Shown: piece by piece, positions 56,441 to 58,855 of the stretch
Numbering within the stretch: position 1 is the first letter of the stretch
How the letters are laid out: each line of letters opens with the position of its first letter
Origin: Archaeoglobus veneficus SNP6
GTDB lineage: Archaea > Halobacteriota > Archaeoglobi > Archaeoglobales > Archaeoglobaceae
Direction: 5' to 3'
NCBI RefSeq assembly: GCF_000194625.1
Contig: NC_015320.1
Coordinates: forward strand, 852,612-916,611
Length of the DNA stretch: 64,000 nucleotides
Made by a program: the position numbers and the translations under genes
The notes under the pieces: generated by a model
The model's database searches: none
Told to the model about the DNA's origin: nothing
The model's input: the letters and a program-made list of their open reading frames with translations, nothing else

Positions 56441-57280
56441 TTATAGCTGTGCAAGCAATCCAGCTAGGTACCCCATTGACTCCAAATCCCTGAAAAATGG
56501 ATCACCGAGCACAACTTGATCGCAGACCTTCAGGAGCTTCCGAGTCTTTTCCGCGACTTCTTCCGGGCTCCCACTCAGAGTAAACCTCTCGATGAGTAAT
56601 TGTTCGTGCTTCCGTATTGTTTCAAAGTCTTCAAGTCCGTAAACACTCTTTCCTTCCTGCCTTGCCCTTATCAGCGCTTCAAAATCAGTTCTCGAGATAT
56701 CTTCCCACACGTCTAACAGCCTAAATTCCCTCAGAAACGTCTCGTTGCTCCCCATAACGATTGCTGCGGCTATGAGCAAATCCTCGTAAAACTCGCTCGG
56801 CAGAACGAGCGATGGGCCGAAGGCCGCAGTATGTATACTGCGATCTGCAAATCCTGTAAGCCAATGAACGTATTCCGGGTGAATGTAGTTCAGGAGAAGC
56901 CCATCAGCCAGACGAGACGCGATTTCAGCAAGCTTCGGCCCGGAGCAGCCGACGTAAACTTCTTCTGCAACTTCTTTTACCCTTTCGAGGCACGAAATGA
57001 GGTGAGAAAGATCTCGGCTCCTCCCCGGGATGATGCCGACAATGTACTCTTCTGCTATTTTGACTATTTCGTCGCACCCTCTTCTGAATGGTGAGAGGAG
57101 GATGCATACATCAAGGGATGTCTCAGATGCGATGGTCTTCGCAACCTCAGCAGGATCTCTGAAGAGTTCGAGTTCTCCGATCCATACTCTCTCTATTCCC
57201 GCCTCTTCCGCTATTCTCGCTCTCTTAATGAGTTCCCTGTCTGGTAAATCACCGTTTATGTTTATAGATACTTTCTTCAT
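56441..57280 (-). CDS. LLM-class (F420- or flavin-dependent) oxidoreductase
   Basis: 279 residues; luciferase-like TIM barrel. MKKVSININGDLPDRELIKRA, ARIAEEAGIERVWIGELELF (first strands and helix), LDVCILLSPFRRGCDEIVKI, EVYVGCSGPKLAEIASRLAD and a C-terminal LSGSPEEVAEKTRKLLK are typical of the methylenetetrahydromethanopterin reductase (Mer)-like family, but it is shorter than Mer (about 330). Cofactor probably F420; substrate unknown. The longer open frame upstream is a shadow of the RHH-Cys gene; ATG 57280 overlaps that gene's stop region. Confidence 0.82.
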   Translation of the reverse strand: MKKVSININGDLPDRELIKRARIAEEAGIERVWIGELELFRDPAEVAKTIASETSLDVCILLSPFRRGCDEIVKIAEEYIVGIIPGRSRDLSHLISCLERVKEVAEEVYVGCSGPKLAEIASRLADGLLLNYIHPEYVHWLTGFADRSIHTAAFGPSLVLPSEFYEDLLIAAAIVMGSNETFLREFRLLDVWEDISRTDFEALIRARQEGKSVYGLEDFETIRKHEQLLIERFTLSGSPEEVAEKTRKLLKVCDQVVLGDPFFRDLESMGYLAGLLAQL

Positions 57281-57281
57281 T

Positions 57282-57794
57282 CTACCAGTTGTCGAGGAGT
57301 CTTTTGACCTCCTGCTTCGAAATCTTCTTCTCCTTTTCTTCCATTTCCTCGAGGGGTAGCTTTGGCCTGTAGCCAAGCCTGTCGCCGTATAACTCAACAA
57401 CGAGCTTTGCGGCGAGCCTTGCGATGTCGTAAGTTCTGTCCACGAGGTCTCTCTCAATTTCTCTCGCCTTTTTCGCCCTCCTATCAACAAAATAGGGGCA
57501 GAAAAGGCACTTGTACGGTACAATTGGCTCCGGTTCTCTCTCTTCGAGTATGTCGCTGAAAACCTCTCTTGCGCAGTGTCTGCCGTCGCTGTACTTGCAG
57601 TACTTGACTCTCTCAGCAGCGCACTGGCTTGCTATTCTGATGAACTCGTTTACGTTTCCGGTGTCTTTCTTCCTCTTGAGGAAATACCAGTCGAGAAGAG
57701 ATAGTATAAAATCTGAAGGGGAAACTTTGGCCTTCTCACACTTCTCCATGAGGGCTTTTTCTATGTCCGGGGGAAGATCAATTGTTATTCTCAT
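57282..57794 (-). CDS. ribbon-helix-helix protein with cysteine cluster
   Basis: 170 residues. N-terminus is a CopG/Arc-type RHH domain (MRITIDLPPDIEKALMEKCE ... SPSDFILSLLDWYF). The remainder carries Cys58, Cys66, Cys74, Cys96 and Cys99 (SQCAAERVKYCKYSDGRHC and PYKCLFCPYF), a possible Fe-S or zinc site, then charged helices. The RHH domain should bind DNA as a dimer. It is 15 nt downstream of the actin-like gene, the ParM-ParR order, and 1 nt upstream of the LLM gene. I do not recognise the full-length family. Confidence 0.75.
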   Translation of the reverse strand: MRITIDLPPDIEKALMEKCEKAKVSPSDFILSLLDWYFLKRKKDTGNVNEFIRIASQCAAERVKYCKYSDGRHCAREVFSDILEEREPEPIVPYKCLFCPYFVDRRAKKAREIERDLVDRTYDIARLAAKLVVELYGDRLGYRPKLPLEEMEEKEKKISKQEVKRLLDNW

Positions 57795-57809
57795 TGGCTA
57801 ACAATTGGT

Positions 57810-58814
57810 TTACTCCTTTTTCACTTTTCCCTTTTTCTTGCCTTCTGCTTTACTCTCCTCTGCAGCCTCTTCTGCCTTGGCTTCCTCACCTTTTTCCTCG
57901 AGGAGTATCTTGGCGAGGGTGTAGTAACCCTTTGCGTTGCTCGTTATCGGATCGTCCGGCCTGATTACTTCGGCAACATCCTCGAAGCTCTTTGAGAACT
58001 CCTCATAAGCTCCTGGTAGGAGCGAGCCTCCACCGGTGAGTACAAGCTTGTCAACGATTGCCGTTGAAAGCCCCTCGAGAATAAGCTTTGTTCTGCTTGA
58101 TATTCTCTCAACCCACGACTTCATGAGTTTCTCGTATTCGTCCTTGACATCGTTGTGGGAGATTGTTATACGCTTTCCGCCCCTTATCCTGCCGACCTCG
58201 TAGTCAGGCGTTGTGAGAAGCTTGGTTAGCTCCTCGGGGGTTACACTTATCCCTGCTTTGTTTCTGATAATAACTTCAATGTTATCGTAGAGCCAGTCAA
58301 CGCCGACGAGCATCGTGTCGCCCCTCAGGTATTCCATGTGTCCCAGAACAACGATGTCTGTGGTGCCAAACCCTATGTCAACGCAAACGCCGGTGTCGAT
58401 GCCCATGTACGCAAGCGTGCCAACAGGCTCGGGGAAGATGAGAACGTCGGTCTTCAACTGCTCCTTTATGTCCTTCGCAAGCTCCTCTCTCTCCTTTTTG
58501 GAGGATTTTACAGGTAGACCCGTCGCAACCACATCCGGTTTTACGTCGAGAACTTTCAGTGCGTGCTTCGCAAGCTCCATGTACGACTGGTGCATGAGCC
58601 TGCCCTCGTGGAGCGGGCGCATTGCCTCAACGTTTTCGAGGCTCTGAATAATCGCAAGAGCTTCCTCACCGACATAGACTTCTTTCTCCTCACCTTTCAG
58701 GCTCCAGTCCTTCTCCTCTCCGTATGCGACGATACTCGGGAAAATCGTAACGTTTTTGCCGTCTTTGGTTGCTTTCGTGTAGTTTGTTCCGATGTCGAGA
58801 CCTACGGGAATCAT
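57810..58814 (-). CDS. actin-like ATPase (ParM/Ta0583-like)
   Basis: 334 residues. Actin-fold motifs: phosphate 1 VGLDIGTNYTKATKDG, phosphate 2 GVCVDIGFGTTDIVVLG, adenosine VDKLVLTGGGSLLPGAYEEF, connect FPEPVGTLAYMG. Shorter than MreB and closest in plan to ParM-type and archaeal Ta0583 actin-like proteins. A charged tail rich in Lys/Glu/Ala (EEAKAEEAAEESKAEGKKKG) follows the fold. ATG 58814 begins MIPVGLDIG; the upstream open frame is rejected. TATA-like TTTAATATTTAG is about 30 nt upstream. Likely polymerises with ATP; cellular role unknown. Confidence 0.85.
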   Translation of the reverse strand: MIPVGLDIGTNYTKATKDGKNVTIFPSIVAYGEEKDWSLKGEEKEVYVGEEALAIIQSLENVEAMRPLHEGRLMHQSYMELAKHALKVLDVKPDVVATGLPVKSSKKEREELAKDIKEQLKTDVLIFPEPVGTLAYMGIDTGVCVDIGFGTTDIVVLGHMEYLRGDTMLVGVDWLYDNIEVIIRNKAGISVTPEELTKLLTTPDYEVGRIRGGKRITISHNDVKDEYEKLMKSWVERISSRTKLILEGLSTAIVDKLVLTGGGSLLPGAYEEFSKSFEDVAEVIRPDDPITSNAKGYYTLAKILLEEKGEEAKAEEAAEESKAEGKKKGKVKKE

Positions 58815-58855
58815 GCGTTTCGCTTTGCTGCTAAATATTAAACGTTTTCCGGTGT

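Follow-up and report, generated by a model that had tools for sequence, protein, structure and literature searches.

Across the Archaeoglobaceae, a gene for an actin-like ATPase is usually followed by a small ribbon-helix-helix (RHH) gene, the product of which ends in a conserved tryptophan motif. The two genes occur together, and the motif is damaged in both genomes where a complete RHH gene persists without a detectable actin gene. We read the products as an interacting actin-adaptor pair that works like ParM-ParR, with a probability of roughly 0.45, and do not present them as proven members of that family. The claim that we trust most is that the actin and RHH proteins bind each other. This appears probable from their sequences, because the tryptophan tail matches the binding mode of arcadin-2 and ParR uses the same groove in ParM.

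Organization of the locus

The window, the whole 64,000-nucleotide stretch that was analyzed, spans positions 852612 to 916611 of a single 1,901,943-base contig. The first-pass annotation of this DNA had placed an actin-like ATPase gene 15 nt ahead of an RHH gene, with 41 nt before the actin gene. Both open reading frames and both distances were recovered as described, the 41 nt lying between the stop codon of LysE and the actin start. In window coordinates, the locus contains the following:

58832 to 58849, minus strand: probable BRE/TATA promoter element of the actin gene (GGAAAACGTTTAATATTT)
57810 to 58814, minus strand: actin-fold ATPase, 334 aa (Pfam, AF2/Foldseek)
57282 to 57794, minus strand: RHH partner protein, 170 aa (in 41 of 57 genomes of the order, confined to Archaeoglobaceae)
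56441 to 57280, minus strand: luciferase-like flavoprotein gene, 3' of the RHH gene (Pfam PF00296, 41.6 bits)

The BRE/TATA reading is based on the position of GGAAAACGTTTAATATTT, which sits at a spacing common to the relatives, and the element is probably the promoter of the actin gene.

The ATPase belongs to a third family of archaeal actins in the Archaeoglobaceae

The actin fold, as originally proposed for the ATPase, is solid. The protein exceeds the Pfam cut-offs of MreB_Mbl (60.8 bits), ALP_N (58.6 bits), and MreB-like_C (28.7 bits). Its AF2 model, with a pLDDT of 85.7, retrieves MreB, MamK, and actin in Foldseek at E-values of about 1e-18. The recognizable elements of the protein are:

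58773 to 58805, minus strand: phosphate-1 motif VGLDIGTNYTK, residues 4 to 14 (actin sequence alignment)
58347 to 58382, minus strand: phosphate-2 motif VDIGFGTTDIVV, residues 145 to 156 (actin sequence alignment)
58011 to 58040, minus strand: adenosine motif LTGGGSLLPG, residues 259 to 268 (actin sequence alignment)
57813 to 57902, minus strand: hypervariable charged C-terminal tail, about residues 305 to 334 (sequence, low pLDDT)

Invariant among 28 actin orthologues are G5, D7, G9, T10, N11, T13, and K14 of phosphate-1; D146, I147, G148, G150, T151, T152, D153, and V156 of phosphate-2; and G261, G262, G263, L266, and P267 of the adenosine motif. The tail, hypervariable across relatives, starts with an acidic stretch and ends rich in Lys/Arg, the last 14 residues carrying a net charge of +2 to +6 in 29 of the 30 orthologues computed. 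It could contact DNA or membrane.

Relatives with 59 to 88% identity are present in 40 of the 57 genomes of the order. A profile search of 393 genomes of the phylum at an E-value of ≤1e-10 gave no match outside the Archaeoglobaceae, and no relative of this actin was found in viral contigs. Plasmids yielded remote ParM and MreB proteins only, the best ParM sharing 24.7% identity. Two described archaeal actins were ruled out as orthologues. For salactin, the scores fall below the cut-offs of both the Pfam model (18.4 versus 27.1 bits) and the NCBIfam model (21.3 versus 400), and true salactin is a separate gene in the same clade, scoring over 300 bits in 5 of 18 genomes tested. The volactin Pfam model is missing among the matches of the window actin up to an E-value of 1 and reaches E-values up to 2.3e-6 in only 5 of 28 orthologues. 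The volactin orthologue of the host genome is another gene (449 bits, PF25216; L119:1144-2121, near 1432420 to 1433253 of G000:C1). The clade has its own salactin, and the window genome its own volactin, apart from this protein. The window actin therefore represents a third family of archaeal actins, restricted to the Archaeoglobaceae, and brings the distinct actin families of this clade to as many as three.

With regard to MreB, the Pfam score of 60.8 exceeds its cut-off of 27, whereas the NCBIfam MreB score is 57 against a cut-off of 293; no mreC or mreD was noticed by inspection among the neighbors of the actin gene. In trees with three or one ParM, the actin lies apart from MreB and salactin (99/98), on the side of ParM. 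Because the ParM rows form long branches nested within the actin family (p-AU of 0.32 for keeping the family as one clade), membership of ParM is not claimed.

The partner combines an RHH-like N-terminus with a cysteine module

Among 84,980 species genomes, orthologues of the RHH protein are confined to the Archaeoglobaceae. A distant match in G181 (E-value, 2e-4) is an unrelated RHH protein that has neither the cysteine module nor the tryptophan tail. An alignment of 27 orthologues displays one layout throughout, consisting of an RHH-like N-terminus, four cysteines, a helical segment, a linker that differs greatly in length, and a terminal Trp. In the window protein, three regions stand out:

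57663 to 57794, minus strand: N-terminal ribbon-helix-helix region, residues 1 to 44 (RITIDLP strand pattern, AF2 helices)
57498 to 57599, minus strand: four-cysteine module C66-x7-C74-x21-C96-x2-C99, candidate Zn or Fe-S site (alignment)
57285 to 57308, minus strand: C-terminal helix/tail VKRLLDNW, residues 163 to 170, candidate actin-binding peptide (conservation)

Pfam gives no match for the window protein; RHH_1 and RHH_5 are each matched weakly by 3 of the 27 orthologues (best E-value, about 0.01). The AF2 monomer model has helices at residues 9 to 22 and 26 to 44 behind a strand-like N-terminus, with a pLDDT of 66; low confidence is expected when an obligate dimer is modeled as a monomer. 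CopG is the best fold match (rmsd of 1.4 over 37 columns), and the 11 fold matches, every one with a non-significant E-value, include CdbA, VapB, and AtaR. Nothing significant came from searching PDB sequences with the RHH profile. The helix pattern and the presence of CopG, CdbA, VapB, and AtaR among the weak fold matches make a good case that the N-terminus adopts an RHH fold, on weaker scores than those of the actin. Of the RHH dimer anticipated in the first-pass annotation, an RHH-like monomer region is predicted, at low confidence and with weak matches. Conservation is clear in this region (R/K2, P8, D10, P26, F29, and WYF at 36 to 38). However, one strand position on the side that should contact DNA is acidic (D6/E6), and DNA binding is therefore not assured.

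C66, C74, C96, and C99 are invariant in 27 of 27 orthologues, as is C19, which is replaced by Ala in three paired g13 genomes. Five cysteines had initially been listed, with a possible role in redox or metal response. All five are present, but C58 is not conserved and C19 had been missed. The idea is therefore narrowed to C66, C74, C96, and C99, a pattern at least as compatible with a metal site of structural role as with a redox switch. Weak Radical_SAM matches in nine orthologues (best, 0.005) were attributed to chance similarity at the CLFC motif.

The actin and RHH genes occur together

Co-conservation, named at the outset as a check on the proposed partnership, was confirmed. Among the 57 genomes of the order, 38 hold both genes, 14 neither, and 5 a single one (Fisher's P = 9e-9, phylogeny ignored). 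Two of these five are actin-only, both MAGs (68% and 89% complete), and three are RHH-only, one of them with the gene at a contig edge. As the 38 genomes with both genes span at least 10 genera, the pairing goes far beyond chance. The luciferase-like gene served as a control and was not associated with either gene (P = 0.5 and P = 0.34). It adjoins the RHH gene in most loci compared, including genomes from which the actin gene has moved away, but the co-occurrence test rules it out as a third component. The gene is also kept in five g11 genomes that lack the pair, and it lies 3' of the RHH gene in most genera.

The pair is adjacent in 10 genera, with flanking genes that vary from genus to genus. 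Its junction is a 4-nt ATGA overlap in g2, g4, g6, g7, and g8 and extends up to 97 nt in g3. In g12 and in G009 and G011, the genes lie apart and both are retained. Overall, the pair has split at least twice, in g3 (L107, L108, L169, and L170) and in g12 (L105, L106, L114, L115, L171, and L172). Two g3 genomes, G010 and G013, have junctions of 65 and 97 nt with a TATA-like element inside, as if the RHH gene had gained its own promoter before separation.

A C-terminal tryptophan tail is damaged in two RHH-bearing genomes without a detectable actin

AF2 predicts a helix at residues 160 to 169 of the RHH protein. The last residue is Trp in all 37 genomes that contain the actin and in which the reading frame is complete, and the motif [VIL]x[KR][LI][LIV]x(1-2)W-end is found in 37 of 37 paired genomes despite the very variable length of the linker. 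A complete RHH gene without a detectable actin gene occurs in two genomes only, G048 and G032. In G048, the terminal Trp is changed to Leu (KIEKLLDL, compared with KIEKLLDW in its actin-bearing genus mates), and in G032, the conserved hydrophobic residue before the Trp is changed from Leu to Ala (VKKALDW). This damage goes in the direction that an actin-binding tail predicts, in small numbers: two genomes, of which one is a 96% complete MAG.

Precedent for such a tail exists. Arcadin-2 binds crenactin solely by its C-terminal helix, which places a tryptophan in the groove; in ParM, the same groove is the one occupied by ParR (PMC5173319). The partnership suggested in the first-pass annotation is thus well supported by co-conservation, by adjacency through reshuffling, and by damage to the Trp motif in both genomes that keep the RHH gene without a detectable actin.

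The salactin operon of Archaeoglobales

The salactin gene of Archaeoglobales is followed by a coiled-coil gene, the product of which ends in an invariant SPR[IL]L, and then by a MinD/ParA-type ATPase gene. Of 15 loci (L163:3336-5713, L164:1709-4152, L165:3553-6201, L166:3686-6207, L167:2166-4642, L184, and L189 to L197), 13 contain all three. Locus L190, which is cut by the contig end and starts after salactin, has the coiled-coil and ATPase genes, and L194, from another family of the phylum outside the order, has salactin and the coiled-coil gene only. In haloarchaea, salactin synteny is described as poor in the salactin paper (PMC10746226). Judged by sequence, salactin and the RHH-paired actin of this clade each appear to have a partner whose body varies and whose C-terminal tail is invariant.

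A model for the pair and its alternatives

A ParR-like link from DNA to filament is the best single model. The actin would polymerize with ATP, while the RHH protein would dimerize through its N-terminal ribbon and bind DNA. The four-cysteine module would hold a metal and give the RHH body its fold, and a flexible linker would present the C-terminal amphipathic helix that ends in Trp. Docking of this helix into the hydrophobic groove of the actin would allow DNA-bound RHH protein to cap, nucleate, or tether filaments, by which the archaeal chromosome, or an episome, would be connected to an actin filament.

The step from DNA to filament is weaker than the binding step, given that the search for parC-like repeats was negative and that the locus shows no linkage to the origin. 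Iterons had previously been reported absent before the actin gene, which was borne out here, with none in or near the pair. Moreover, neither iterons nor parC-like arrays were found within about 2 kb of the operon in five genomes, nor parC-like repeats upstream of split or orphan RHH genes. A 9-nt inverted repeat around the RHH start (CAATTGTTA/TAACAATTG, 57770 to 57816) was taken as chance, since it is absent from the junctions of the two nearest relatives. Linkage to the origin likewise received no support: in eight complete genomes, the locus is not near cdc6/orc1, the pair lying about 121 to 579 kb from the main cdc6 match.

We regard two rival explanations as serious. In the first, rather unlikely in our assessment, the RHH protein controls transcription of the actin operon, as the haloarchaeal CdrS/CdrL proteins do for ftsZ2, and makes no contact with the filament. 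Archaeal precedent comes from CdrS and CdrL: CdrS, an RHH protein, is cotranscribed with ftsZ2, and CdrL, which joins an RHH domain to a C-terminal double zinc ribbon, has the cdrS-ftsZ2 promoter region as its sole binding site (PMC7439475). The partner described here shares the RHH plus Cys-rich layout of CdrL, and a probable promoter lies directly upstream of the actin gene. However, in the 160 nt ahead of the actin gene, no conserved palindrome that could be an operator was seen beyond the BRE/TATA element, as judged by eye rather than by a quantitative motif search, and no repeats precede the split RHH genes. A regulator also leaves the invariant Trp tail, and its damage in RHH-only genomes, unexplained.

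In the second, which we consider unlikely, the RHH protein depolymerizes actin or sequesters its monomers in the manner of arcadin-2, using the RHH fold for dimerization or autoregulation and forming no link between DNA and filament. The C-terminal Trp helix matches the arcadin-2 binding mode, Cb-cParR depolymerizes mature filaments (PMC12270681), and centromere-like repeats were looked for around the operon and the split RHH genes and not found. Nevertheless, a depolymerizer needs no such conserved RHH N-terminus, and this conservation better suits a dimer that binds DNA. Finally, it is highly improbable that the two are merely old neighbors in a housekeeping operon with no functional linkage: the luciferase-like gene often trails the RHH gene too, but it lacks the co-occurrence seen for actin and RHH (9e-9), and the pair stays together through rearrangements, with both genes kept after separation.

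Relation to known systems

Among bacteria, Desulfitobacterium and Clostridium carry ParM-ParR pairs on the chromosome (PMC12270681). The preferred reading, a ParM-ParR-like actin-adaptor pair, shares with ParMRC and cParMR an actin-like ATPase gene followed by a small RHH-fold gene and an adaptor whose C-terminal region is the probable filament contact. It differs in being archaeal and chromosomal throughout, in an actin that matches MreB_Mbl and ALP_N best and is only remotely similar to plasmid ParM, and in the extra four-Cys module of the RHH partner and the lack of detected parC-like repeats. The original ParM-ParR-type label therefore holds as an analogy (gene order, RHH adaptor, and C-terminal tail) and not as membership.

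Crenactin and arcadin-2 of Pyrobaculum likewise combine an archaeal actin with a neighboring gene whose product ends in a conserved Trp helix. Arcadin-2, however, is a depolymerizer for which the accessible text describes no RHH domain (PMC5173319), and crenactin is not close in sequence to the Archaeoglobaceae actin. Salactin and volactin, the haloarchaeal actins, are also archaeal actin homologues, but the Archaeoglobaceae have true, separate orthologues of both, and the actin described here groups apart. Salactin has been linked to DNA partition, in which it is proposed to act, and the available part of that paper reports no DNA adaptor (PMC10746226). CdrS and CdrL resemble the partner as RHH proteins encoded with a cytoskeletal gene, and CdrL also has a zinc-type C-terminal domain. 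In their case, the cytoskeletal partner is a tubulin homologue, CdrL is a promoter-binding regulator, and the accessible text describes no C-terminal Trp tail (PMC7439475). In AlpC-AlpA of prophage CGP3, an actin-like protein and a cotranscribed DNA-binding adaptor join DNA to filaments (PMC4446434). The AlpA gene, however, lies upstream, and its promoter holds about 24 alpS repeats to which AlpA binds; no such repeats were found here.

Bacterial chromosomal ParM-ParR pairs and archaeal actins with groove-binding partners (crenactin) are thus already known. In the literature outside subscription journals and preprints, we found no description of the present combination, in which an unnamed family of archaeal actins is joined by an RHH partner that bears a Cys module.

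If the model is true, this would be, to our knowledge, the first chromosomal actin-adaptor DNA segregation pair known in Archaea. That the Archaeoglobaceae segregate or position their chromosome by a mitosis-like actin system, in which this third archaeal actin family is tied to DNA by a metal-containing RHH adaptor whose Trp tail grips the filament, is less likely than not. Chromosome movement and the roles of actins in euryarchaea are largely open, and the pair would offer a defined candidate for a connection from actin to DNA, with the short invariant tail and its terminal Trp as the peptide and the residue to test first.
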